From NCBI RefSeq assembly GCF_900091515.1, contig NZ_LT607410.1, positions 3,968,001-4,032,000 on the forward strand: a stretch of 64,000 bases of DNA, read 5' to 3'. Shown piece after piece: positions 9,895 through 61,753 of the stretch; position 1 is the first letter of the stretch, and each line of letters begins with the position of its first letter. This stretch comes from Micromonospora purpureochromogenes (GTDB taxonomy: Bacteria > Actinomycetota > Actinomycetes > Mycobacteriales > Micromonosporaceae). The translations under genes and the position numbers were made by a program. A model generated the notes under the pieces. The model had not been told where the DNA came from. It was given only the letters and a program-made list of their open reading frames with translations, and ran no database searches.

Positions 9895-10824
9895 TCACTT
9901 GCCGAAGCCGGCGGTGAGGCCGCCGAGCAGGTGACGCCGGCCGAACAGGTAGAGGGTGAGCACCGGCAGGGCGGAGAACACCACCAGCGCCATCAGGCCG
10001 GGCACATCGGTGCCGAACTGGTTCTGGAAGTTCCACAACCCGAGCGGCAGCACCCGCTGCTCGCGGCTCTGGGTGAGGACGAGGGGGAAGAGGAAGCCGT
10101 TCCAGGCGCCCAACCCGCTGAAGATGCCGATGCTGACCAGGCCGGGCCGGGCCAGCGGCACGACGAGCCGGGTGAAGGTGCGCGCCGAGCCCGCCCCGTC
10201 GACGGTCATCGCCTCGTACAGCTCGTCGGGGATGTCGCGCAGCGTGCTGGTGAGCACGACGACCGACATGGGCAGGGAGAACGCCACGGTGGGCAGGATG
10301 ATCGCCGGCAGCGAGTCGTACAGCTGGAGCCGAGTGATGATCAGGTAGATCGGGACGACCACGGCCTGGGCGGGGATGGCCAGGCCGAGCAGGAAGAGCG
10401 AGAACCCGACCCGCACGGTCCGACTCGTGCCGCGCACGATCGCGTACGCCGCGGGCAGCGCGAGCGCGAGCACCAGCACGATCGTCGCGGCCGTCACCAC
10501 CGCGCTGTTGAGCAGCAGCCGGGCGAAGCCCTGCCCCAGCACCCGGCCGTAGTTGTCGAGGGTCAGCGTCCCGGGCAGGGCCAGCGCGCCGTCGTTGAGA
10601 TAGCCGTCGGGGGTGCGCAGGCTGGTGACCAGGATGTAGTAGAGCGGCAGCACCACCACGAGCAGCCACAGGGTCGCCCCGACACCGGCCGGCAGGTTCA
10701 CCGGCCCGCGGGCCCGCGCCCGGCCCGGGGCGGGCGGCAGATCGGCGCGTACCCCCGTCGTGGCGGGCGCGGGCGTGCCGCGCGTCGGCGGCGGCGCCGG
10801 CCGCACGGACTGCGGGTGTCTCAC
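9895..10824 (-). CDS. carbohydrate ABC transporter permease 2 (MalG/BxlG-type)
   Basis: A 309-residue inner-membrane protein with six predicted helices. The EAA-loop reads YEAMTVDGAGSARTFTRLVVP, diagnostic of CUT1 permeases coupling to an MsmK-type ATPase, which is not encoded here. The GTG start at 10824 overlaps the stop of the preceding permease in a GTGA tetranucleotide, indicating translational coupling. The N-terminal 30 residues are Pro/Arg-rich and cytoplasmic. Confidence 0.88.
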   Translation of the reverse strand: MRHPQSVRPAPPPTRGTPAPATTGVRADLPPAPGRARARGPVNLPAGVGATLWLLVVVLPLYYILVTSLRTPDGYLNDGALALPGTLTLDNYGRVLGQGFARLLLNSAVVTAATIVLVLALALPAAYAIVRGTSRTVRVGFSLFLLGLAIPAQAVVVPIYLIITRLQLYDSLPAIILPTVAFSLPMSVVVLTSTLRDIPDELYEAMTVDGAGSARTFTRLVVPLARPGLVSIGIFSGLGAWNGFLFPLVLTQSREQRVLPLGLWNFQNQFGTDVPGLMALVVFSALPVLTLYLFGRRHLLGGLTAGFGK

Positions 10825-11744
10825 AGGCCCTCCCGGTCGCTGGCCATCCGGTGGTAGCCGGTGGCGCGGACGATCAGCACCGACAGCACGGTGCCGACGG
10901 CCACCAGCAGCACCGACAGCGTGCTGGCGTAACCCATGTCGAAGCCGACGAAGCCCTTGATGTACATGTGCAGCGGCAGCACCCGGGTCTCGGTGCCCGG
11001 CCCACCACCGGTGAGCAGCAGGATCGTCTCGAAGTAGGTGAGCGACCCGACGATCATCAGCACCGAGGAGGCGACGATCGTGTGGCGCAGCAGCGGCAGG
11101 GTGATCGACCGGAACTGGCGTACCCGGTCGGCGCCGTCGATGGCCGCGGCCTCGTAGAGGGTCGCGGGGATCTGCCGGACGGCGGCCTGGTAGATCAGCG
11201 TGTGGAACGGGACGAACTGCCAGGCGATGACGAGGGCGACCACGTACAGCGCGCGGTCCGGGTCGCCGATCAGGTTGCCGTCGGGCGCGCCCAGCCAGGG
11301 CCCCAGCGTCGCCGCGGCGCCGAAATTGGGGTCCAGCAGGGACAGCCAGGCCAGCGCGATCGCGGCGGTGGAGAGCAGCAGGGGCAGGAAGAAGGCCGCC
11401 GAGAGGATCGCCCGGTTGCGCTGCGGCGCCGCCGCCCAGACGCCCAGCAGCAACGCCAGCGGCGTCTGCACCACCCAGCACAGCGCCGTCAGCAGCAGTG
11501 TGGTCCAGATGCCGTGGGTCAGGTCGGCGTCGTGGCGCAGCGCCCGCCAGTTGTCCAGGCCCGTCCACACCGGGTCGCCGAGCCCGTTCCAGCGGGTCAG
11601 GCTGAGGTAGGCCACGACCAGGATCGGCGCCAGCCCGAAGGCGGTGAAGAACAGCCCGGCGGGGACCGCCCAGAGCGCCCGCGGCCGGCCGTGCCGGCGC
11701 CGGTCCGCCGGGGCCCGGCCGAGGGCCGGCACGGCCGCGGTCAC
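10821..11744 (-). CDS. carbohydrate ABC transporter permease 1 (MalF/BxlF-type)
   Basis: A 307-residue protein with six hydrophobic helices and the CUT1 coupling loop YEAAAIDGADRVRQFRSITLP. It pairs with the downstream permease as a heterodimer. The GTG start at 11744 overlaps the stop of the binding-protein gene as GTGA, so the three transporter genes are translationally linked. No ATPase gene is nearby; such systems commonly share a multitask ATPase encoded elsewhere. Confidence 0.88.
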   Translation of the reverse strand: MTAAVPALGRAPADRRRHGRPRALWAVPAGLFFTAFGLAPILVVAYLSLTRWNGLGDPVWTGLDNWRALRHDADLTHGIWTTLLLTALCWVVQTPLALLLGVWAAAPQRNRAILSAAFFLPLLLSTAAIALAWLSLLDPNFGAAATLGPWLGAPDGNLIGDPDRALYVVALVIAWQFVPFHTLIYQAAVRQIPATLYEAAAIDGADRVRQFRSITLPLLRHTIVASSVLMIVGSLTYFETILLLTGGGPGTETRVLPLHMYIKGFVGFDMGYASTLSVLLVAVGTVLSVLIVRATGYHRMASDREGL

Positions 11745-49885: not shown

Positions 49886-49996
49886 GGTCATGAGCGCCAG
49901 CGTCAAGCCCCGGCTCGCTGGCCGGCAACCCTCCTCCACGGTGGGGTGCTCCGGGTGAAGACCAGGCACCGGTGTGGCACCGGTGCAAGCGTGGCC
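49886..49996 (+). promoter_or_regulatory. SAM-IV riboswitch
   Basis: The sequence GGTCATGAGCGCCAGCGTCA..CCCCGGCT..GCTGGCCGGCAACCCTCC..CGGTGGGGTGC-TCCGGGTGA-GACC matches the known SAM-IV aptamer core of actinomycetes (the closing GGTC/GACC stem, 49886-49889 with 49960-49963). A 9-bp hairpin (49966-49974 with 49978-49986) and an AAGCGTGGCC 3' element follow, as in the family. A TAGCCT (49873-49878) upstream is a plausible -10. It senses S-adenosylmethionine and normally lowers expression when SAM is high. Confidence 0.9.
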
Positions 49997-50028
49997 TGGT
50001 TGCCAGGTCAGCACCGACCAGGAGAACC

Positions 50029-50178
50029 ATGTCTGCTCAACTTTTCGCCCCGCCCGTCGGCGGTGCCGTGCCCGCGGCCCCGTCCGACGCGCCGGCTGCC
50101 CGCCTGCTGCTGGTCAAGCGGCGACACGTCGACCTGATGCGGGTCTGCAGCGACGGCTGTCGCCGCCCGACCGCGTAG
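50029..50178 (+). CDS. 49-residue Cys-containing leader peptide
   Basis: A small ORF with AGGAG (50020-50024) at normal spacing from its ATG encodes a peptide ending LVKRRHVDLMRVCSDGCRRP. The RRHVD-x-x-R-V-x-S-x-x-C pattern matches the actinobacterial leader peptides found ahead of sulfur-related genes. It holds two Cys codons (residues 40 and 44), suited to ribosome-stalling control by cysteine. It lies directly downstream of the SAM-IV element and 104 bases before the ABC operon. Confidence 0.8.
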   Translation: MSAQLFAPPVGGAVPAAPSDAPAARLLLVKRRHVDLMRVCSDGCRRPTA

Positions 50179-50282
50179 TCGACGACCCCCTTTCCTCGTA
50201 CCACCTCCAGCGGTTTGCCCGTCCGGCACGCCGTCTCCCGGCGCGCCCGTGTGCCCGCCGACCGATCAACCCGGAGACACCT

Positions 50283-51143
50283 GTGCGATTTCTTCCCGCT
50301 CTGTCCAAGGTGGCCGCGCTCGGCGCCGCCGCCGTCCTCGCCGCCACCGCGCTGACCGCCTGCGGCGACGACTCGTCCGAGGCCGCCGACAACCCGTACG
50401 GCCTGCTCCAGCCGGGCGTGCTGCGCGCCGGCACGCTGACCGACGCGCCGCCGAACGTGTACCTGAAGGACGGCACGTTCACCGGCTTCGACAACGACCT
50501 GCTCACCGCGGCCGCGGCGAAGGTCGGCCTGAAGGTGGAGTTCGTCGGGACCGACTTCTCCGCGCTGCTGTCCCAGGTCAACAACCGCAAGTTCGACATC
50601 GGCAGCTCCTCGATCACCATCACCGAGGCGCGCAAGAAGACCGTCGACTTCGGCAACGGCTACGACTTCGGCTACTTCGGCCTCGACGTGCCCGCCGGTT
50701 CCCCGATCACCAGCTTCGACCAGCTCGCCGGCAAGCGGGTCGTCGTCGTGCAGGGCACGGTGCAGGACGACTACGCCACCGGCCGGAACCTCGACCCGGT
50801 CCGGGTGCCCGACTACAACGGCGCGATCAACCAGCTCAAGGCCGGCACCGCCGACGCCTGGATCGCCCCCGCCGAGATCGGCGAGAAGTCGGCGGCGGAC
50901 AGCAGCGGCAAGATCACCGTGGCGGCCAAGCAGCTCAGCCCCGCCCCCACCGCGTACGCGTTCGCCAAGGGCAACGACAAGCTGCGCGAGGCGCTGAACA
51001 AGGGACTCGACGAGGTCATCGCCGACGGCACCTGGACCCGGCTCCAGGCGCAGTACTACCCGGGCCGGCCGATCCCGGCCGACTTCAAGCCCGGCAGCGG
51101 GGCCGTCGCGGTGCCGGCGGCGTCGGCGTCGACCACCTCCTGA
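50283..51143 (+). CDS. amino-acid ABC transporter binding lipoprotein (family 3)
   Basis: A 286-residue binding protein. The leader ends LAATALTAC with lipobox C27. The mature part is a family-3 fold for polar amino acids: DGTFTGFDNDLLTAAAAKVGLKVEFVG and SSSITITEARKKTVDFGN. GTG at 50283 after GGAGAC. The SAM-IV riboswitch and Cys leader peptide upstream indicate a sulfur-containing ligand such as cystine, cysteine or methionine; this is inferred from regulation. Confidence 0.87.
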   Translation: MRFLPALSKVAALGAAAVLAATALTACGDDSSEAADNPYGLLQPGVLRAGTLTDAPPNVYLKDGTFTGFDNDLLTAAAAKVGLKVEFVGTDFSALLSQVNNRKFDIGSSSITITEARKKTVDFGNGYDFGYFGLDVPAGSPITSFDQLAGKRVVVVQGTVQDDYATGRNLDPVRVPDYNGAINQLKAGTADAWIAPAEIGEKSAADSSGKITVAAKQLSPAPTAYAFAKGNDKLREALNKGLDEVIADGTWTRLQAQYYPGRPIPADFKPGSGAVAVPAASASTTS

Positions 51144-51186
51144 CGGTACGGATGACGAGCGAGCGGGGCGGACGGGGACGAGACCG

Positions 51187-51984
51187 ATGGACACCTTGAG
51201 CACCCTCTGGGAGACCTTCTTCGACCGGGACTCGATGCGCGAGGCGCTGCCCGAGATGCTCACGGTCGGGCTGCCCAACACGCTGATCCTGGCGATCTCC
51301 GCCGCCCTGCTCGGCTCGATCCTCGGCATGCTGCTGGCGATCGCGGGCATCTCGCGTACCCGATGGTTGCGGTGGCCGGCGCGGGTCTACACGGACGTCT
51401 TCCGCGGCCTGCCGGCCGCGGCGACCATCCTGCTCATCGGTGTCGGCCTGGCGCCGCTCGGCATGGAGGTCTGGGGGCCCAACCCGTACCCGTTGGGCAT
51501 CCTGGCGCTGTCGCTGATCGCCGGCGCGTACATCGGCGAGATCTTTCGCTCCGGCATCCAGAGCGTCGAGGCCGCCCAGCTGGAGGGGGCGCGGGCGCTC
51601 GGCTTCTCCTGGGGCGAGGCGATGCGGCTGGTGATCATCCCGCAGGGGGTACGCCGGGTCCTGCCGGCCTGGGTCAACCAGCTGATCGCGCTGATCAAGG
51701 ACTCCAGCCTGGTCTACTTCCTCGGGCTGGTGGCCAGCCAGCGGGAACTGTTCCGGATCGGCCAGGACTACGCCGCCACCACCGGCAACGAGTCGGCGCT
51801 ACTGCTGGCCGGCCTGTTCTACCTGGCGTTGACCGTGCCGCTGACCCACGCGGTCAACTGGATCGACCGGCGGCTGCGCCAGGGACGGTCGGTGACCGTC
51901 GACCCCGACGACGACGGCGGGCTGGCCCTGGCCGGCGAGACCGCCCTGCCCCCGCAGACCCCGACCGGGAAGGACCACCGATGA
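51187..51984 (+). CDS. amino-acid ABC transporter permease (HisM-type)
   Basis: A 265-residue protein with five hydrophobic segments and the HisMQ coupling loop [26 protein letters not shown], followed by [13 protein letters not shown], typical of polar and sulfur amino-acid permeases. The ATG at 51187 lies 43 bases after the binding-protein stop. Its stop overlaps the ATPase start (ATGA). Confidence 0.88.
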
Positions 51985-52724
51985 CCGCCACCACCACCAC
52001 CTCGGTCAGCCTCGCCGTCCGGGACGTCCACCTCGCCTTCGGCGCCAACCGGGTGCTGCGCGGCGCCGGCCTGCACGTCGGGCGCGGCGGCACCGCCTGC
52101 GTGATCGGCCCCTCCGGCTCGGGCAAGTCCACCCTGCTGCGCACCATCAACCGGCTGATCGAACCGGACCGGGGCGACGTGCTGCTCGACGGGCGCAGCG
52201 TGCTGCGCGACGACCCGGACGCGCTGCGCCAGCGGGTCGGCATGGTCTTCCAGCAGTTCAACCTCTTCCCGCACATGAGCGTGCTGCGCAACATCACCCT
52301 GGCGCTGCGCCGGATCAGGAAGCTCTCCGAGGACGAGGCCACCGCGGTCGCCCGCGCCCAGCTGGAGCTGGTCGGGCTGGGCGGCAAGGCGGACTCCCGC
52401 CCGGCGCACCTGTCCGGCGGGCAGCAGCAGCGGGTGGCCATCGCCCGGGCGCTGGCGCTGCAACCGCAGGTGATGCTCTTCGACGAGGCCACCTCGGCGC
52501 TCGACCCGGAGCTGGTCAAGGGCGTCCTCGCCGTGATGGCCGATCTTTCCGCCGACGGCATGACCATGGTGGTGGTCACCCACGAGATGGGCTTCGCCCG
52601 CGAGGTCGCCGACACCGTCGCCTTCATGGACCACGGGGTGGTGCTGGAGGCCGGCGAGCCGGCCGCGATCTTCGAGGCGCCGGAGCACCCCCGGCTGCGC
52701 CGCTTCCTGTCCCAGGTGCTCTGA
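51981..52724 (+). CDS. amino-acid ABC transporter ATP-binding protein
   Basis: A 247-residue ATPase: Walker [17 protein letters not shown]-loop [10 protein letters not shown], signature [15 protein letters not shown], Walker [15 protein letters not shown], and the switch His in [14 protein letters not shown]. Closest in style to GlnQ/TcyC-type ATPases. Overlaps the permease by 4 bases; last gene of the SAM-IV-regulated operon. Confidence 0.9.
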
Positions 52725-52758: not shown

Positions 52759-53808
52759 TCAGAGCCGGCGGGCGGTCAGCCACCGGTCCGGCCAGTAGCC
52801 GACCCCGTCCAGCAGGGGCGCGCCGGAGAGGTCACCCATGGTGGGACCGTCGGTCTGGGACCGGCTGGAGATGAACCGGTGGTGCCCGCCGTCGTCGATG
52901 CCGAGGTAGATGCCGGAGTGGTCGATCTGCCGGCTTGGCACCGGCTGGGCGTTGAAGAAGACCAGGTCACCGGGGAGCAACTTGTCGATCCCGCGGGCCC
53001 GCTGGCCCGAATTGGGCATCAGCTGGACACCCGGGCCCACCTCCGCCATGGCGTACGCCCGGCGCGGCAGGCCCTCGCCCGGGGTGTTGGTACCGCGCAG
53101 CGGATAGCCGAGCCGGTGACCGTAGACCATTCGCAGGTAGCCGGAGCAGTCCAGGGCCAGCTTGCGCTGCGGCTCGGGGATTGCCGCCTTGCCGTCCAGG
53201 AACGACCAGGGCAGACCCAGGTAGTCGTAGAAGTCGGAGCGCTCCTGACGGCCGTCGGGATCCGCCGGGTCCGGCGGTCCGAACGAGGCGTCGCCGGAAT
53301 ACTGCTGCCCCTGGTTGTCCCGCTTCACCGGTGCCCCGTCGACGTACTCGAAGGCGATCGACAGCACGTCCGGCGAGCGGTCCCGGCGGGCGGCGGCGAA
53401 CCAGTCGACGAACCACTGCTCCTGTTCGGCGCCGGCCCGCCACGGCTGCGGCGCGAGCCGGACCCACATGTCGGTCTCGATCTTCGCGTCCGTGAAGCGC
53501 GGCTCCTCGAACGTCCGGGACGGACCGTAGATGTGTGCGGTCCGCGCGCCGTCGGTCATGATCGCGACCGGCTCCCCCGACGAGTCGATGATCTCCGTAC
53601 GATCCGGTTCGGACGACCGCTGGTAGTGGTAACCCGACGCGCCGGCCGCCTGGCCCTCGGTCGCCTTCGCCAGGCCCAGGGTCAGCTCGGGTTCGTCCCC
53701 AGCCGACGGCCGGGCCACCAGGTAGGTGAGCATGCTCGCGGTGATCAGCAGGACGAGCCCGAGGATGCTCGACACGGCCGGCCTGCGGAGATACCTGCGA
53801 TAGCTCAT
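52759..53808 (-). CDS. NlpC/P60 peptidase-domain protein of the pgs cluster
   Basis: A 349-residue protein with an N-terminal membrane anchor (SSILGLVLLITASMLTYLVA), a unique 180-residue middle region, and a C-terminal NlpC/P60 domain. LDCSGYLRMVYG supplies the nucleophile C221, DHSGIYLG the His (H297), and GHHRFISS the third position. These enzymes cleave gamma-D-glutamyl bonds in peptidoglycan or polyglutamate. The ATG at 53808 has AGGAG. It is directly downstream of pgsC on the same strand, so a role in trimming or releasing a gamma-glutamyl polymer is inferred. Confidence 0.85.
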   Translation of the reverse strand: MSYRRYLRRPAVSSILGLVLLITASMLTYLVARPSAGDEPELTLGLAKATEGQAAGASGYHYQRSSEPDRTEIIDSSGEPVAIMTDGARTAHIYGPSRTFEEPRFTDAKIETDMWVRLAPQPWRAGAEQEQWFVDWFAAARRDRSPDVLSIAFEYVDGAPVKRDNQGQQYSGDASFGPPDPADPDGRQERSDFYDYLGLPWSFLDGKAAIPEPQRKLALDCSGYLRMVYGHRLGYPLRGTNTPGEGLPRRAYAMAEVGPGVQLMPNSGQRARGIDKLLPGDLVFFNAQPVPSRQIDHSGIYLGIDDGGHHRFISSRSQTDGPTMGDLSGAPLLDGVGYWPDRWLTARRL

Positions 53809-53852
53809 TCCTGCTTCTCCTTTCGATGACGGGTGCGAGTCGGACGGAAGGG

Positions 53853-54338
53853 TCAGGTCACCGGCACGAAACCCGCGACGACGCCGCTGTACGTGATGCC
53901 GAACGTGATCGCCGTCACGATGAGGGTCGCCAGGATCGTCGCCCTCGGCGGCTGGCGCACGAGCTGGTAGGCGATCAGCCCGGGAATCACGAAGCCCAGC
54001 GTCTGGTGGGCGAACAGCAGTGGCAGGTCGCGCTGGACGAGCAGGAACATGGACAGCTGCAACAGCACGCTGACCAGCACGATCGCGGCGAACAGCCGCT
54101 TCCCGTACAGGATGATCACCCGGTGCATCAGCCGGGCGATGAGGTAGGTGACGATGGTGACCCCGACCACGATCACCGCCTGGAGCTGGTCCTCGATGAG
54201 GGTCAACGCGATCCAGCCCGGGGTGATCATGCCGCCGGGCGAGAGGTTGGTGGTCAGGTAACACAGCAGGGCGAACACCAGCCCGATGCCGAGGCTCGCC
54301 GTGGCCAGCTGGGCGCTGAGTTCTCCGCCGAACGTCAT
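53853..54338 (-). CDS. pgsC: poly-gamma-glutamate biosynthesis protein PgsC/CapC
   Basis: A 161-residue protein with five hydrophobic helices and the PgsC landmarks: GIGLVFALLCYLTTNLSPGGMITPGWIAL and LFAHQTLGFVIPGLIAYQ. PgsC is the membrane partner of PgsB. Its ATG overlaps the PgsB stop by one base (TGATG), so the two subunits are translationally coupled. Confidence 0.9.
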   Translation of the reverse strand: MTFGGELSAQLATASLGIGLVFALLCYLTTNLSPGGMITPGWIALTLIEDQLQAVIVVGVTIVTYLIARLMHRVIILYGKRLFAAIVLVSVLLQLSMFLLVQRDLPLLFAHQTLGFVIPGLIAYQLVRQPPRATILATLIVTAITFGITYSGVVAGFVPVT

Positions 54339-55576
54339 CAGTGGCTCCCTTCTCCGGTCGAGGTACGAAGGGTGGAGGCGGAGGGAGAGCCGTCCTCGCA
54401 GGTCCAGCCCGGCAGTGTCGCCAGCTGGTGGACCAGCACCTCACCCTGCCCATGGATGTTCCCGACGGCGACGATCGAGGAGTCGTCCGGGGTCGCTGCG
54501 GTCACGCCCTGCAGCAGGCTGTCCGGATCCGGTTTGCCGCCGAGGTCGATCACCCGGTCCTGAAGGTCCGCGGGCACGGTGGTCCGGGCGCTCTTGGTGA
54601 CCTCTCCGATCAGGACGATGGTCTCCGGTCTCACCCGGCCGCTCAGCTCGCCCATCTGCCCGTTGCGCTCGATCCGGTCCGGCCGGCAATTGATCACCAT
54701 CGTCAGCGGGCGGGTGATGAGCTGCTGGTCCTCCAGTTGCTGGATGTTCATGAAGGTCGACTCGGGGTCGTTGGCGGCGAAGATGTTCGCGAACCGGAAC
54801 CGCTTGTCGCCGTGCATCACCCGGGCCACGGAGAGCACACCCGGGTCGGGCGGCGCCTCCCACATGCCCCGCAGCGCGCTCTGCCGGTCGACGCCCAGTT
54901 CCCCGGCGACGGCCAGCGCGATCGCGACGTTCTCCTTGAAGGTGATCCAGCCGAAGCCGTTCATCTCGTGGTCGCTGACCGATTCCGGGTCGACCGCGAT
55001 CAGGCGGCAGTCCCGCCGGTCGGCCTCCTCCTGCAGGATCGCGAGCCGTTCCCGCTCGGCGGTGATGCAGGTGCCGCCCACCGGCATCGACCGGCTCAGC
55101 GACCGGGCGACATCGTCCAGGGTGGGCCCCATCTCGGCGAGGTGGTCCTCGCGGACGTTGCACAGCACCCCGATGTTCGACCGGATCAGCTTGCTCTGGT
55201 TGACCTCCTGCAGCGCCGGCATCACCGCCATGCACTCCATGACCAGAGCGTCCGGATGGTAGACGGCGGCCCGCCGCACGATGCCGATCTGCTCGACCAC
55301 GTTGGCGATGCCGAACTTGCGGTGCACCGGCTCCTCGCTGGCGTCCGGGAAGATGAACCGGGCCGCCGTGCCGGTGGTCTTGGCCACCACCACCTGCCCA
55401 CCGCCGCGCAACCCGCCGGCACAGAGCCGGGTGATCGAGCTCTTGCCCCGGATGCCGTTGACCAGCACCCGGTCCGGAATCATGTTCAGGTTCCGGTAGT
55501 GGTTACGCTGCTCGACCATCCCCGCGCCGAACAGCGCCACACAGCAGAGGACGAAAACGACGTAGAGGTATACCAC
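54338..55576 (-). CDS. pgsB: poly-gamma-glutamate synthase PgsB/CapB
   Basis: A 412-residue Mur-ligase-like amide ligase that joins glutamate through the gamma-carboxyl. An N-terminal helix (VVYLYVVFVLCCVALFGAGM) precedes the ATP loop GIRGKSS (41-47), then VVAKTTGTAAR, ALVMECMAV (metal and substrate region) and CNVREDHLAEMGPTLDD. The GTG start at 55576 has AAAGGAG; the frame is open upstream but lacks a better site. Substrate could be D-Glu, L-Glu or another diacid; that is not readable from sequence. Confidence 0.9.
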   Translation of the reverse strand: MVYLYVVFVLCCVALFGAGMVEQRNHYRNLNMIPDRVLVNGIRGKSSITRLCAGGLRGGGQVVVAKTTGTAARFIFPDASEEPVHRKFGIANVVEQIGIVRRAAVYHPDALVMECMAVMPALQEVNQSKLIRSNIGVLCNVREDHLAEMGPTLDDVARSLSRSMPVGGTCITAERERLAILQEEADRRDCRLIAVDPESVSDHEMNGFGWITFKENVAIALAVAGELGVDRQSALRGMWEAPPDPGVLSVARVMHGDKRFRFANIFAANDPESTFMNIQQLEDQQLITRPLTMVINCRPDRIERNGQMGELSGRVRPETIVLIGEVTKSARTTVPADLQDRVIDLGGKPDPDSLLQGVTAATPDDSSIVAVGNIHGQGEVLVHQLATLPGWTCEDGSPSASTLRTSTGEGSH

Positions 55577-55577
55577 G

Positions 55578-57893
55578 TCAACTCCTTTCGTCTCGGTCGT
55601 CGGCGCGGGTGTCGGCACTCTCGCTCAGCCAGACAGTGGCCCGACCGGCTTCGGGTTGCGGCGGGACCTCGGGCAGCACGACGGTGCGGTCCTCCTCGGT
55701 GCCGCGCAGCCGGCTCGCACCGCCCAGCCGGCTGGAGCCGGTGTGCCGGACCTGGCGGCAGACCTCCAGGCACATCGCCAGCGCCCCGATGTCGTCGTGG
55801 CGTTGCGGCGAGATCGGCTCCTCCACGTCCCCCTCGCTGATCCGGTCGGCCTGCACGGCGAGGCGGCGCAGCGGCCGCGCGAAGACGAAGTACTGCCACG
55901 TCTGGCTCAGCAGCACCACGCCCGTCGTGGCACCGGCCACGAGCAGCGTCCACCGCCGTCCGTCGCTCTGCGGCAGCCGCAGCCCGGCCAGGTCCTGCTC
56001 CACCACCAGCGACCACTTCAGCGGAGCCACGGTGTTCGGCTTGTTCAGGCCGGCGGCGGCGATCAGCGCCGGCCTGCCGTCCGGCGTCTTCGCCATACCC
56101 ACAGTGCCGCCCTTCAGCGCCTCGGAGGCGGCAACCCGGGCGGTGCCCTCCAACTGCTGGAAGGCGCGGAAGCCGTTGGAGTCGAAGACGGTGCGCAGGT
56201 CCTCGTCGACGACCCGTACCTGCCCGTCCACCGCCCGGATCATCTCCAGCAGGTAGTCGATGTCGAACTCGCCGACGGTCGCGACGCCGTTGGGAGCGAC
56301 CCGGAAGGCGTACACCAGCGGCACGCGTGCGGTTTCGCCGTCCAGTTCGATGCCGGTCTCACCGCGCAGCGGCTCCTTGCGAAGCGGCTCCCGTCCCGCG
56401 GCACTGACGACCGATCCGTTCGGGTCCATCAGGTAGAGGCTGCGGAAGCGGTGTTTGTCGGCCAGTTCCTGCTTCAGCTGCGGGGCCAGTTGAGCCGGGT
56501 CGGGCGTCGCCTCCGACGCCTGGGAGATGCGGGTCACCGTCTGCAGGCCGTTGTTCAGCGCCTTGCCCATCACGTTGCTCGCCGCCTCGGCCCTGCTCTC
56601 CTCGTCCCGGACGAGTTGGCCGGGGATCGGCGGCTCAGGTGAGCTCAACGTGTAGGCCGCCGCCGCCGCCGGCCAGAGCAGCGCCACGACGGTGGCCAGG
56701 GCCATGCCCTGGTTCACGGTCGGTCGCCACCGCCACCGCCAGCGCTTCCGGCCGGCGGTACCGGACGATGGATCGTCGGACGTGAGCGACAGCGCCCGGG
56801 CGATGCGGTGGGCCTCCGCGACGCGCAACGGGTGCCGCTTGCTGGGGACCTCACCACAGGCGTCCGCCTTGGCCCGCTCCAGCAGCGACCGGACGGGCCT
56901 GACCAGCGCCAGCCGCATCAGCAGGAAGCTGGGCACCGCCATCGCCAGCAGGGTCAGGCCGAGCAGGAAGCCGTGCACGGTGGAGGTGCCGCCCGTTTCC
57001 TCGGCGACGATGAGGGTCGCCACCGTCGCCCCGGTCTCCCCCACCGGAGCGGAGGAGACGACCAGTTGCTTGTTCAGCCACTCCGTCACCCGGATCGGGT
57101 GGCCCTCGGTGGATCGGGACTGCGCCAGCCCCTGGAAGACCACCGGCAGGTGGACGTCGGGTACGGCACTGACCCCCTGCATCAGGGTGCTCTTGCCGTC
57201 CGGTGTGATGACGAAGATGCCCTGCCGGGCGTTGGGGTTGAGGCGGAGTTCGTCCACGTCGAGCGGTTGGGTCGCCAGCAGGGTCCGGGTGCCGTCCAGC
57301 GCGACGCTGCGGACCAGCGCCGGCCCGTCCGGAGTGGTGATCGGGAACGTGTCCTTGGCGGGCAGCGCCGGTGGCAGCAGCTCCATCGGTACGCCGCTGC
57401 CGGCGGTGGCCAACGGGCGCCGCGACGCGGTCTCCACGATCGCGGCCCCGGTCCACTCCGTGCCGTTGCCCACCACCTGCTTGACGAACTCCGGGTCGGG
57501 CGTCGTCGGTGGCCGAGCCGCGATGCGCTGGTCGAGGTCCTCCACGTAGTGGTTGATGGTCAGCCGCATGCTGGAGGCGACCTTCGACACGTTGTCCCGC
57601 TGCGAGTCGACCACGGCCGGGGGGACGCCCCGTTGGTTGTTGATGGCGAACCCGAGCACGATGGCGGCCGCCAAACACATGATCGCCCAGAGGTACAGCA
57701 TCGACGGCTTGCCGGAACCGGCGGGAAAGCCGGCAGTCGGGAGCTGCTGGTCCAGCGCCCGTCGCCGCCACGGGACCGCCTGCTCCTGGGGCGGGTCGGA
57801 GGGCACCGACGGCACGGACGCGCGCCCGCGGAAGGGCTGCTGATCGCGGCCCCGGTCGGGGGCGGGCTGTTCGCCTCCGTTCCTGCTCTTCAT
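55578..57893 (-). CDS. large HAMP-containing membrane protein with two extracytoplasmic sensor regions
   Basis: A 771-residue protein. A Pro-rich cytoplasmic N-terminus of about 70 residues is followed by a helix (LYLWAIMCLAAAIVLGFAI), an extracytoplasmic region (about 105-315), a helix pair (FLLGLTLLAMAVPSFLLM), a cytoplasmic linker with RHPLRVAEAHRIAR, a second helix near 420 and second extracytoplasmic region (about 440-660), then a last helix and HAMP-like ARPLRRLAVQADRISEGDVEEP. No kinase, cyclase or chemotaxis domain follows. Its stop is one base before the pgsB GTG. I infer a regulatory or scaffold subunit for polymer synthesis, replacing the missing PgsA. Confidence 0.7.
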   Translation of the reverse strand: MKSRNGGEQPAPDRGRDQQPFRGRASVPSVPSDPPQEQAVPWRRRALDQQLPTAGFPAGSGKPSMLYLWAIMCLAAAIVLGFAINNQRGVPPAVVDSQRDNVSKVASSMRLTINHYVEDLDQRIAARPPTTPDPEFVKQVVGNGTEWTGAAIVETASRRPLATAGSGVPMELLPPALPAKDTFPITTPDGPALVRSVALDGTRTLLATQPLDVDELRLNPNARQGIFVITPDGKSTLMQGVSAVPDVHLPVVFQGLAQSRSTEGHPIRVTEWLNKQLVVSSAPVGETGATVATLIVAEETGGTSTVHGFLLGLTLLAMAVPSFLLMRLALVRPVRSLLERAKADACGEVPSKRHPLRVAEAHRIARALSLTSDDPSSGTAGRKRWRWRWRPTVNQGMALATVVALLWPAAAAAYTLSSPEPPIPGQLVRDEESRAEAASNVMGKALNNGLQTVTRISQASEATPDPAQLAPQLKQELADKHRFRSLYLMDPNGSVVSAAGREPLRKEPLRGETGIELDGETARVPLVYAFRVAPNGVATVGEFDIDYLLEMIRAVDGQVRVVDEDLRTVFDSNGFRAFQQLEGTARVAASEALKGGTVGMAKTPDGRPALIAAAGLNKPNTVAPLKWSLVVEQDLAGLRLPQSDGRRWTLLVAGATTGVVLLSQTWQYFVFARPLRRLAVQADRISEGDVEEPISPQRHDDIGALAMCLEVCRQVRHTGSSRLGGASRLRGTEEDRTVVLPEVPPQPEAGRATVWLSESADTRADDRDERS

Positions 57894-58088
57894 GGCGACC
57901 CTTCGCTCTCGGCGACATCGGAACGTGCGCGTCATGTCGATCATCGAACTCGGCAGGGTGAGGAGACTTCACCCGACCGGGATGAACTCGGCGGGCGTCG
58001 AGTCCGCGTCGCGGCCGCGTCGAGCGGTGGCACCACGTGGCGGCCGACGGGGTGAGGCCGCCTCACACCGCGGAGGTGAACTGGTACG
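57894..58088. other. gap between HAMP protein and gamma-glutamyltransferase genes
   Basis: 195 bases without a gene. The two flanking genes point the same way, so this may hold a second promoter of the cluster. None was recognised. Confidence 0.35.
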
Positions 58089-59969
58089 TCAGCGCCCGAT
58101 CGCGCTGCCGTCGCGGCGCTTGTCCGCCGCCCCGAGCAGCTCGTCGCCGCGTACCTCGATCGCGGTGAGACCGCTGTCCAGTGCGATGAGCCGGGGACAC
58201 GGGTGCTCGCGGACCACGAGTTCGGCCATGATCGCGCTGACTCGCCGGCCCGCTTCGAGCTCGGAAGGCGCCCCGACCGACTTTCCGCACTTTCGCGTGA
58301 TGTCCTGCCCGCTGAAATGCCCCTGGTCGATGGCCTCGGCCGGCCCCATGCCGTCGACGATCACACCCACCAGCGCCTGGGTCACGTAGTCCGGGATGTG
58401 CGAGCCGCCGGCGGCGCCCACCACCAGCTTCAGCTTCCGTCCCTGTTCATCCAGGACGATGGTCGGCGACATCGACGCCGTGGGACGCTTCTTCGACTCC
58501 ATGACGTTCACCGGCTTGCCGGGTGAGACCGACGACGTGTCGGTGAAGTTGTTCATCGCGTTGTTGAGGATCATCCCCCGCGCCTCGAGGTGCGCCCCGA
58601 AGTGCGTGTTGATGGTGGTCGTCATGGACACGGCGTCGCCGTCGCTGTCCACGATGCTCACGTTGCTGGTCGGGTCGCCGACGTCGATGGTGCTCGGGAC
58701 GTCCCCGGTCGGCCCCGGAGGGATCCGCTCCGGCGGCTCTCCCGGTTTGACCGGGTCGATCGCGCGGTCCGAAGAATAGAGGGAGAAGCGCTGGTCGAGA
58801 TACTTGTTGTCCAGCAGACCGGCCGCCGGCACCTTGTGGTAGGCCGGGTCCCCGATGTACGCCCGGCGATCGAAGTTCGCCAGCCGGCTGGCCTCGACGA
58901 AGAGGTGCATCCGATCGGCCGAGTCCGGCTCGCTCCTGCCCACCTGGCCGCGGTCGAGCAGGCCCAGCATCTCCAGTACGGACACTCCCCCGAACGCGGG
59001 CGGCGCCGAGGTGCACACCAGCACGCCCAACACCTTCCGGCACATCGGTTTGCGTTCGATGGGCGCGTATTCGGCGAAGTCCTCGGCGGTCATGAGACTG
59101 GGGATCACGACCGGTCCGGCGGTGTTTCCCTTCAACTTGAACGGCCCCTTCGCCGCGTGCTGCACGATCGCCGGGGCGATCTTCCCCTTCGGGTCGTAGA
59201 AGGCGTCCGCCCCGCCGTCCCGAACCTCCCGCAACACCTGCGCGATCTCCGGGTTGCGAATCGTCGTACCCGGCTTCTTGGCCTTGTCGCCGTTGCAGTA
59301 ACGGGGGCGCAGGTCGGGGTAGTTGCAGCGCTTGCGCCCGTTATTGCGCTCGTCGAGCCCACTGCTCAGGGCTTCCGGCATGGGGAAGCCGTTCGCGGCC
59401 AGGTTGATGGCGTCGTCGAAGAGCTCGTCCCAGGGGAGGTCCCCGTACACGTCGTGGACGTCCGAGAGCACCCGCAGCGTGCCCGGGACAGCGAACGCCC
59501 GGGCCGTCGCCGACGCCGCGTACGGGAACCGGTCGACACCGAGCGCCTTACGCTCCTGGTCGGTGGGAGTCATCAGGTTCTGCGGCACGTTCTTCGGCGC
59601 TCGGGACATGCCGTCGAAATACCGCACCGTGTGTTTGTCGGGATCCCAGTAGTTGATCAGCGTGCCGCCGGTCAGCCCGGAGGCGTGTGGCTCCACGACG
59701 GCCAGGACCGCCTGCACGGCCACGGCCGCATCCGCGGCCGAACCGCCCTTGGCGATGATTTTGCAACCGGCCTGGACCGCGAAGGGATTGGCCGCCGCCA
59801 CCATGAACTTCCGACCCACGGCGTCGGCTTCCCGGCCGGTGGTGGGATTCGCGCACGAGTCGGCACGCGCCGCAGCCGTGTTCGCTCCGGTGACCGCTGA
59901 CGACAGAGCCGGAAAAACGAGCGTCAGCACCAGCGCGGACAGGTAGGAGCGCCGCTTCCGTGCGTACAT
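58089..59969 (-). CDS. gamma-glutamyltransferase-family protein (CapD/GGT-like)
   Basis: A 626-residue exported N-terminal-nucleophile hydrolase. A signal peptide (MYARKRRSYLSALVLTLVFP) precedes NPFAVQAGCKIIAKGGSAADAA (typical GGT start), then DPTSNVSIVD with the expected self-processing Thr at 434, and AVSMTTTINTHFG and VVGAAGGSHIPDYV for substrate binding. The ATG at 59969 has GGGAGG. In Bacillus, CapD/GGT relatives attach or release poly-gamma-glutamate; the pgs neighbours make the same role likely here. The usual TTH before the core is PTSN in this protein. Confidence 0.87.
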   Translation of the reverse strand: MYARKRRSYLSALVLTLVFPALSSAVTGANTAAARADSCANPTTGREADAVGRKFMVAAANPFAVQAGCKIIAKGGSAADAAVAVQAVLAVVEPHASGLTGGTLINYWDPDKHTVRYFDGMSRAPKNVPQNLMTPTDQERKALGVDRFPYAASATARAFAVPGTLRVLSDVHDVYGDLPWDELFDDAINLAANGFPMPEALSSGLDERNNGRKRCNYPDLRPRYCNGDKAKKPGTTIRNPEIAQVLREVRDGGADAFYDPKGKIAPAIVQHAAKGPFKLKGNTAGPVVIPSLMTAEDFAEYAPIERKPMCRKVLGVLVCTSAPPAFGGVSVLEMLGLLDRGQVGRSEPDSADRMHLFVEASRLANFDRRAYIGDPAYHKVPAAGLLDNKYLDQRFSLYSSDRAIDPVKPGEPPERIPPGPTGDVPSTIDVGDPTSNVSIVDSDGDAVSMTTTINTHFGAHLEARGMILNNAMNNFTDTSSVSPGKPVNVMESKKRPTASMSPTIVLDEQGRKLKLVVGAAGGSHIPDYVTQALVGVIVDGMGPAEAIDQGHFSGQDITRKCGKSVGAPSELEAGRRVSAIMAELVVREHPCPRLIALDSGLTAIEVRGDELLGAADKRRDGSAIGR

Positions 59970-60458: not shown

Positions 60459-61070
60459 GTGCAGGAGAGGTCCGACATCCCGGGACGTACCCGTTGGCGG
60501 CGCTTCGCCGCCCTGGCGATCCCGGCGACCGCGGTCGCCGGCGTGATCGTGTTCGGCATGGCCAACGGCGCCATGGCCGCCTCGTTCGCCGTCTCCGGGC
60601 AGACGTTCAAGGTCTCCGCCTCGGAGCTGCGCGGTGAGGGCTTCGTCCAGTACGGCGGCGTCGCCCAGGAGGTCGACGGGACGAGGCACCCGGTGGCGAC
60701 CACCGGTATCCGCAGGGCGCAGCTCTTCGACCTCTGCCAGTCGGTGAAGGCGCCCGGCGTGCCCGCCGTGATCACCCTCAACGCCGGGGGCGGTGGCCGG
60801 CCCGCCACCGCCAGCGACCTGCTGATCGACGCCGAAGAGCTCGAGGGTGACGCCCGGTTCACGAACATCCAGATCAACCGGGACGCGTCGACCCTCGAGG
60901 GCGGCCCCCCCAACGCGAAGGGTCCCCGGGGGACGTTCGGCCAGCAGGCCGACACCGTCACGATCACGAACCTCCGCCAGGTGGCCCGCTCCACCGAGGC
61001 CCGGACGTTCAACCTCACCGGATTGAAGCTGAAGGTCAAAACGGGCGCGGCCGCCAAGGAGTGCTTCTGA
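60459..61070 (+). CDS. DUF6230-like secreted/anchored protein
   Basis: A 203-residue protein with an N-terminal Arg-rich stretch and helix (FAALAIPATAVAGVIVFGMANGAMA), then a beta-rich domain with SFAVSGQTFKVSASELRGEGFVQYGG and a lone Cys near LFDLCQSV. I associate it with the DUF6230 actinomycete family. The GTG at 60459 has GAGGAGG. It is the first gene of an operon with a DUF6114-like protein, an order seen in other actinomycetes. Confidence 0.72.
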   Translation: MQERSDIPGRTRWRRFAALAIPATAVAGVIVFGMANGAMAASFAVSGQTFKVSASELRGEGFVQYGGVAQEVDGTRHPVATTGIRRAQLFDLCQSVKAPGVPAVITLNAGGGGRPATASDLLIDAEELEGDARFTNIQINRDASTLEGGPPNAKGPRGTFGQQADTVTITNLRQVARSTEARTFNLTGLKLKVKTGAAAKECF

Positions 61071-61138
61071 GCTGACCTCCGCCCCGCTGTCCGTGTGGCG
61101 GAGGCTGTGCTCGACCCCTCACTCGGCAGGAGGCATGG

Positions 61139-61753
61139 GTGGACAACGGCGAACCGCGGAACGCCCGGCCGGAGCGGCTCCGCGACCGGCGCGGCTTCCG
61201 CCGCTGGCGACGGACCCGACCGTTCTGGGGCGGCCTGTTCACCGCCCTGGCAGGTCTGCAGATCTTCGGCACCACCCAGATGTCGCTCGCCGGCCTCACT
61301 CTCCAGACGGGGACGACCGGCTTCCTGTCCTGGCTGATCCCCACCATCCTGGTGACCTGTGGGCTGCTGATGTGGTTCAAGCCCCCGCACCGGGTCCTCT
61401 ACGCCGTGGTCGCCGCCGTGACCGCGCTCTTCTCGCTGATCGGAGTGAACCTCGGCGGCTTCTTCGTCGGCCTGCTGCTCGGCCTGGTCGGCAGCGCCCT
61501 CGGTTTCGCCTGGACGCCGAACACCCCGCCGAGCGCCGCGGCGGCCAGCGAGCCGGCCGGCGAGCCAGGGGTACGGGACGAGACAGCCGACGACGCGAGC
61601 GGGCCCGACGAGACCACGGGCGACCGGACGGCACGACCCGGGACGCCGGAGAACGGGCCGGGGCCGGACCAGCCCACGGCCGGTACGGGAGCTGACCGGA
61701 CGGCCCCCGACGCTGCCCCCAGCACGGGCAGCCGGCCCTCGTCGACGAACTGA
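61139..61753 (+). CDS. DUF6114-like membrane protein
   Basis: A 204-residue protein with four hydrophobic helices (FWGGLFTALAGLQIFG, FLSWLIPTILVTCGLLMWF, VLYAVVAAVTALFSLIGV, FFVGLLLGLVGSALGFAW) and an acidic Thr/Pro-rich tail of about 75 residues. It starts at a GTG (61139) with AGGAGG and overlaps the next gene by one base (TGATG). The function is unknown. Confidence 0.72.
   Translation: MDNGEPRNARPERLRDRRGFRRWRRTRPFWGGLFTALAGLQIFGTTQMSLAGLTLQTGTTGFLSWLIPTILVTCGLLMWFKPPHRVLYAVVAAVTALFSLIGVNLGGFFVGLLLGLVGSALGFAWTPNTPPSAAAASEPAGEPGVRDETADDASGPDETTGDRTARPGTPENGPGPDQPTAGTGADRTAPDAAPSTGSRPSSTN

Follow-up and report, generated by a model that had tools for sequence, protein, structure and literature searches.

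Poly-gamma-glutamate synthases are encoded by pgs and cap operons, and CapD of the cap operons belongs to the GGT family. dCache-HAMP receptors, which include the chemoreceptors PctA and PctC, histidine kinases and the SiaA phosphatase, form a second group of relatives of the locus described here; kinases or methyl-accepting domains are the usual outputs of Cache-HAMP proteins. In the pgsBCA(E) system of Bacillus subtilis, the endo-hydrolase PgdS is encoded immediately downstream of the pgs genes (PMC4497714). Control of Bacillus pgs operons is ascribed to the DegS-DegU and ComP-ComA systems, and deletion of pgsA is described as blocking synthesis (PMC5751247). The need for PgsA is disputed: in B. 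subtilis, polymer was obtained from pgsBC in the absence of pgsA, with a D/L ratio of 5/95 compared with 75/25, although the Discussion of the same paper cites work holding the opposite view and earlier claims were that all three genes are essential (PMC6029982). Here we analyse a cluster from Micromonospora purpureochromogenes, in a 64,000-nucleotide stretch (GCF_900091515.1, NZ_LT607410.1, 3,968,001-4,032,000; hereafter the window), in which pgsB and pgsC are joined to the gene of a tandem dCache-HAMP membrane protein. Among the titles and abstract openings of the matches listed in a search of open-licence PMC text, none connected pgs genes with a protein of the HAMP or Cache type.

Results

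A duplicated dCache-HAMP protein is encoded next to pgsB and pgsC

The cluster consists of five genes on the minus strand; the nearest protein match, at 97%, is to M. purpureochromogenes and agrees with a Micromonospora genome. The original prediction had assigned the genes to a GGT-type enzyme, a HAMP protein, PgsB, PgsC and an NlpC/P60 hydrolase and had noted tight HAMP gene/pgsB/pgsC junctions, and the family models and coordinates agree with it on both counts. The HAMP gene (55578..57893, 771 aa) ends one base before pgsB (54338..55576, 412 aa), which in turn overlaps pgsC (53853..54338, 161 aa) by one base. A gap of 44 bases separates pgsC from the gene of the secreted NlpC/P60-type hydrolase (52759..53808, 349 aa). 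Between the HAMP gene and that of the secreted GGT-type enzyme (58089..59969, 626 aa) the gap is 195 bases (57894..58088), so that a transcript shared with GGT is not required.

The HAMP protein has four transmembrane (TM) helices and matches PF00672 at residues 672-706 (33.1 bits, cut-off 25); no other Pfam family exceeded its cut-off. It had been described as a dual-ectodomain protein, and in an AlphaFold2 model (predicted local distance difference test score, pLDDT, 83) the ectodomains have the dCache fold. The description can be taken further, as the two ectodomains belong to an internal duplication of a whole TM-dCache-TM-HAMP unit. The first repeat, at residues 60-372 (56778..57716, minus strand), ends in a degenerate HAMP module; the second, at residues 388-735 (55689..56732, minus strand), contains the Pfam HAMP domain and keeps its D-[DE]-x-G-type motif. 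Alignment of the repeats with hhalign gave a probability of 99.4% (E 2.1e-21, 287 columns), and a reversed control gave 1%. In some lineages the units are carried as separate genes near pgsB (L108, L050 and L110; L050 could be a frameshift). The protein had also been called sensor-like without an output domain, and behind the HAMP module we indeed found no Pfam match at E values up to 1; residues 724-771 have pLDDT below 50.

The HAMP protein is the partner of one clade of PgsB

A search of genomes for pgsB-pgsC pairs flanked by this HAMP protein, as had been proposed, was run on two samples. With TIGR04012 (E up to 1e-20), PgsB was found in 39 of 300 genomes of the family, 24 of 348 of the order and 21 of 396 of the phylum, the three samples sharing genomes. 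The neighbourhoods of 77 PgsB loci (the window, L015, L019-L059, L094 and L104-L136) were then surveyed with profiles for six families. A HAMP protein is encoded just upstream of pgsB in 51 of these loci, and 26 are without it. The second sample, of 80 named loci, holds the best 80 of 338 relatives found with a PgsB alignment in genomes representing GTDB species, one per species; its query was made from HAMP-clade PgsBs, which biases it to that clade, and it overlaps the survey (L040 and L187, for example, are one genome). In each of the 80 named loci the HAMP gene immediately precedes pgsB (L229 and L246 are truncated where their contigs end, and in L263 the end of the gene lies further than usual from pgsB), and an NlpC/P60-type gene lies downstream in 78. 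They come from Micromonosporaceae, Streptomycetaceae, Pseudonocardiaceae and, once, Nocardiaceae, which contradicts the possibility raised earlier that this HAMP family never occurs with pgsB outside a single lineage.

In a maximum-likelihood tree of the 77 actinobacterial PgsBs (quick search, with Shimodaira-Hasegawa-like approximate likelihood ratio test, SH-aLRT, supports), one clade of 52 contains 51 PgsBs with a HAMP partner, and none of the 25 PgsBs outside it has one. Support for this clade is 87, and for a wider clade of 59, which includes a HAMP-less Micromonosporaceae type, it is 97. On the same tree the presence of the HAMP protein requires 2 changes and that of linked pgsA 10. Four partial or split cases (L094, which is cut by its contig, L108, L110 and L125) were scored as positive, and loci with the HAMP gene in two frames or pieces (L025 and L050 in the survey, L232 and L236 among the named loci) were counted as having it. 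Fifteen PgsB positions are special to the HAMP clade, of which 14 lie in the N-terminal third.

The two genes are also tightly coupled. Across both sets, the PgsB core and the end of the HAMP gene could be recognised at 115 distinct junctions, and in 109 of them the HAMP stop lies no more than 20 bp from the candidate pgsB start, the start being the candidate nearest to that stop, which favours small distances. The commonest distances are +1 (30 junctions), +6 (22), +15 (16), +2 (12) and -4 (12), and 66 junctions either overlap or leave a gap no longer than 5. A profile of the HAMP protein identified 14 places in 10 of 249 genomes of the order, with at most four candidates scored per genome, so that absences are soft; 12 of the 14 are in PgsB loci.

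Linked pgsA comes and goes at HAMP-type loci

The original prediction held that pgsA is absent here. This stands for the cluster, where no PF09587 (PgsA) gene is found and which therefore differs from the Bacillus arrangement; the genome as a whole has four PF09587 genes. One of the two pgs-type genes lies in a second, HAMP-less cluster, pgsB2-pgsC2-NlpC2-pgsA (C1:6548761-6552877; L015 7762-11878), and the other is unlinked (L017, C1:6.088 Mb) and reaches 567 bits against a profile of pgs-type PgsA. L017 shares a group (SH-aLRT 97) with the PgsA of L058 and with the HAMP-cluster-linked PgsAs of L033 and L040, both close relatives. The remaining two genes fall into other PF09587 groups; the PF09587 gene nearest to the cluster (L001, about 217 kb away) is not of pgs type. 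A truly PgsA-free window genome was thus rejected. The original prediction had named, as a finding that would speak against it, a complementing pgsA homologue elsewhere; the two pgs-type genes are candidates for this role. The second cluster is preceded by an open reading frame of 895 residues that by eye resembles a surface protein.

PgsA is encoded on the same strand in 24 of the 51 HAMP-type survey loci, always upstream of the HAMP gene, and is linked in 30 of the 80 named loci, again always upstream; seven named loci end less than 4.5 kb upstream of pgsB, and a linked pgsA is possible there. In the HAMP-less survey loci it is found in 20 of 26, always downstream of pgsC, and six have none linked in this way. 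In the small clade to which the window belongs (five rows, support 100), L033 and L040 have the order GGT-pgsA-HAMP-pgsB-pgsC-NlpC and three members, including the window, are without pgsA. The pgsA of L033 and L040 is of the second-cluster lineage, unlike the lineage linked in other Micromonospora, and for this reason pgsA looks exchangeable at the HAMP locus.

We next consider genomes whose HAMP-type locus has no linked pgsA. From 48 of the 50 named loci of this kind and 11 survey genomes, 57 genomes were searched (L247, which shares its genome with L239, and L266, whose genome G027 encodes a pgs-type PgsA, were omitted), and removal of two duplicates and two genomes without the HAMP protein left 53. 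A pgs-type PgsA is encoded elsewhere in 36 of them, the window genome included (at least 327 bits). The other 17 have no PgsA above 126 bits, with at most 33 candidates scored per genome, so that these absences too are soft; G923 (77% complete), G748 (89%) and the metagenome-assembled genome G990 are the weak cases among them. Twelve further survey genomes without linked PgsA (G075, G112, G027, G062, G313, G416, G482, G497, G532, G550, G553 and G574) all have one elsewhere, at 400 bits or more with a similar profile, which leaves 17 of 65 genomes with neither a linked nor another pgs-type PgsA. In G499, one of the 17, no PF09587 gene of any kind was matched although the genome is 100% complete. 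These counts suggest that PgsA is usually on hand in trans where it is not linked, and that natural PgsA-free HAMP systems probably exist.

Enzymes of the cluster

PgsB, the amide ligase, scores 388.4 bits with the equivalog model TIGR04012 (curated cut-off 222.7) and contains the P-loop NGIRGKSS. PgsC, with about five TM helices (five peaks in its hydrophobicity profile), scores 116.6 bits with PF14102 (cut-off 27) and falls below the equivalog cut-off of TIGR04011 (79.9 against 96.45 bits); by these scores it is a diverged PgsC. A sequence search for solved relatives of PgsB and PgsC returned none at the limits used. The NlpC/P60 protein scores 30.5 bits with PF00877 (cut-off 23) and has Cys221 and His297 at the motif positions; of 143 NlpC-type rows, 138 show a Cys pattern and 80 match the His pattern that was applied. 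In the GGT-type enzyme (PF01019, 364.3 bits), Thr434 aligns with residue 1 of the small chains of GGTs in the PDB, the residue that serves as nucleophile in known GGTs, and the score with TIGR00066 is below the cut-off (295.8 against 357.85 bits). GGT adjoins the HAMP cluster on the same strand in only 5 of the 51 HAMP-type survey loci.

Several variants of these proteins were seen elsewhere. Double-length PgsC-like proteins (312-367 aa matched) lie beside pgsB in L107, L111, L113, L134, L135 and L136, loci that lie in a separate PgsB clade; 7-9 TM helices are predicted for those of L107, L113 and L136, and they are possibly duplicated PgsCs. In L046, L049, L051-L053 and several Streptomyces loci, several hundred bases lie between the PgsB core and pgsC, and the called PgsB frames of L046, L049 and L051-L053, at 597-705 aa, suggest a C-terminal extension. 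The PgsA-free cluster of L110 encodes an NlpC-like protein (10637-11653) without the catalytic Cys and His motifs.

Upstream element and flanking genes

The 195-base gap before the HAMP gene was considered as the place of a pgsA remnant; no search was directed at one, and the gap instead matches the sequence preceding the HAMP gene in relatives, both those that have pgsA linked and those that do not. It contains the dyad GGGTGA-N7-TCACCC (57956-57974); by eye, a weaker second copy lies nearer the GGT gene. The exact dyad occurs upstream of the HAMP gene in L019, L030, L033, L040 (= L187), L188, L190 and L191, and is not exact in L189; L030 and L033 have two copies each, spaced 106 and 111 bp, respectively. 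With a loose form of the pattern the window had a single match, where 0.06 were expected; since 6 of 100 shuffles matched as well, chance could account for the dyad of the window taken by itself. Across the genome the loose form matched at 24 places, against one for a backward control. The dyad may be an operator or a terminator.

On the plus strand, genes that by eye encode an amino-acid-type ATP-binding cassette transporter (binding protein, permease and ATPase; 49974-52724) converge on the NlpC gene at a distance of 34 bases. On the other side, DUF6230 (170.6 bits) and DUF6114 (118.7 bits) proteins are encoded at 60459-61753, on the plus strand and divergent from the GGT gene.

Discussion

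The reading that we favour, with a probability of roughly 60%, is that the HAMP protein is a dedicated transmembrane sensor or regulatory subunit of PgsB-PgsC that acts by contact, PgsA being an optional and exchangeable extra. The locus would then be a Pgs/Cap synthase of a distinct actinomycete subfamily, with a near-constant core of tandem dCache-HAMP protein, PgsB, PgsC and NlpC/P60. From their families, PgsB and PgsC are expected to join glutamates via gamma-amide bonds and to pass the chain across the membrane, while NlpC/P60, together with GGT in the small clade of the window, would cut, release or trim gamma-glutamyl bonds of the polymer outside. The two extracellular dCache domains would sense an outside cue (whether an ion, a small ligand, the wall or the polymer itself), the two HAMP modules of the single chain would form an intramolecular signalling bundle, and the protein would alter PgsB-PgsC activity by direct contact, a route that is proposed since a kinase, cyclase or methyl-accepting output domain is missing from the chain. 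A control subunit tied to an external signal had already been suggested in the original prediction; dCache ectodomains, HAMP modules, the missing output domain and near-constant coupling to pgsB across families speak for the role, and the mechanism we infer. A fuller version is tentative: the two fused TM-dCache-TM-HAMP units might be a single-chain receptor that gates the synthase by contact, with no kinase or second messenger, giving a ligand-gated amino-acid-polymer synthase across several actinomycete families in which the receptor has become a constant subunit and PgsA would be a dispensable modulator, perhaps of D/L composition, lost outright from some lineages.

Several points weigh against a sensor subunit. 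Contact between the HAMP protein and PgsB and the production of a polymer are themselves things that we infer, as are the direction of control and the ligand. A narrower alignment of 49 sequences gives the duplication a probability of only 70% (E 4e-5). The amino-acid-binding dCache motif, in the form RxW[YF], matched none of 29 sequences and was rejected, and no ligand is therefore suggested. Conservation of the C-terminal tail, where docking might naturally be expected, extends over Micromonosporaceae and not to Streptomyces. One PgsB of the HAMP clade, in L048, has no HAMP protein. Finally, the two profile matches outside PgsB loci are an overlapping pair of single-unit dCache-HAMP genes in G482 (L273 8066-10134), without pgs genes and, by eye, near response-regulator and kinase-like genes.

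That pair bears on two other explanations. If the HAMP protein were a co-receptor for a separate kinase or regulator encoded elsewhere, adjacency to pgsB would serve only co-expression; the regulator-like neighbours in L273 and the normal feeding of kinases or methyl-accepting domains by Cache-HAMP proteins fit this idea, but no regulator was recognised as a member of these clusters, in which six families were profiled, and we regard it as very unlikely. The protein could instead be a structural part of the synthase, a scaffold for assembly or chain length that senses nothing and uses its Cache domains as spacers or polymer guides. The absence of an output domain and of a recognised ligand motif, the tight coupling to pgsB and the near-constant presence would all be expected of such a part. 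However, TM-dCache-TM-HAMP in both repeats and the D-[DE]-x-G-type motif in the second suggest selection for signalling, and the L273 pair exists without pgs near two-component-like genes; a purely structural part thus seems unlikely.

The original prediction also offered the HAMP protein as a functional substitute for PgsA, that is, a membrane scaffold or extracellular subunit for export whose presence permits the loss of PgsA. The lability of linked pgsA within the HAMP clade is consistent with this, and the 17 of 53 genomes with no pgs-type PgsA, G499 among them, or 17 of 65 in all, weigh against dismissing it entirely. The HAMP protein is, however, not restricted to places where PgsA is absent: the two genes coexist in 24/51 and 30/80 loci, including the near relatives L033 and L040, which led us to reject substitution as a general role. 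PgsA is moreover encoded elsewhere in 36 of the 53 genomes, that of the window included, and in 12 of the 12 further survey genomes; 6 of 26 HAMP-less loci likewise have no linked pgsA on the same strand, and PgsA belongs to a different family (PF09587). Since B. subtilis PgsBC is reported to yield polymer without PgsA (PMC6029982), no substitute would be required. We consider substitution improbable and continue to favour a sensor or regulatory subunit.

A sensor built into the synthase, if true, would be a new form of control of an anionic, capsule-like polymer and an external switch for polymer engineers. Because linked pgsA has been gained and lost repeatedly in the HAMP clade, the long-standing dispute over PgsA becomes open to test, and labels such as 'HAMP domain-containing protein' or 'histidine kinase' mask a likely synthase partner.

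Compared with B. subtilis pgsBCA(E) and pgdS, the cluster of the window shares PgsB and PgsC, by family models, and a hydrolase gene downstream. It differs in having no pgsA and no room for pgsE, in the tandem dCache-HAMP gene coupled to pgsB, and in an NlpC/P60 protein in which one such domain is recognised. With the cap operons that carry CapD it shares a GGT-family enzyme beside the synthase, an enzyme whose sequence also matches those of the solved CapD chains, whereas its closest solved relatives are ordinary GGTs, there is no local pgsA, and few HAMP-type loci have a GGT alongside. The HAMP-less actinobacterial pgsB-pgsC-pgsA-GGT clusters (L117-L124, L126 and L131-L133) have PgsB, PgsC and GGT in common with the window but place pgsA downstream of pgsC, and their PgsB is on a distant branch of the tree. 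In contrast to the known dCache-HAMP receptors, the window protein has the whole unit duplicated in one chain, lacks an output domain and is tied to a polymer synthase gene. Judged by its PgsB and PgsC sequences, the cluster is of the Pgs/Cap kind, with a conserved candidate subunit added.

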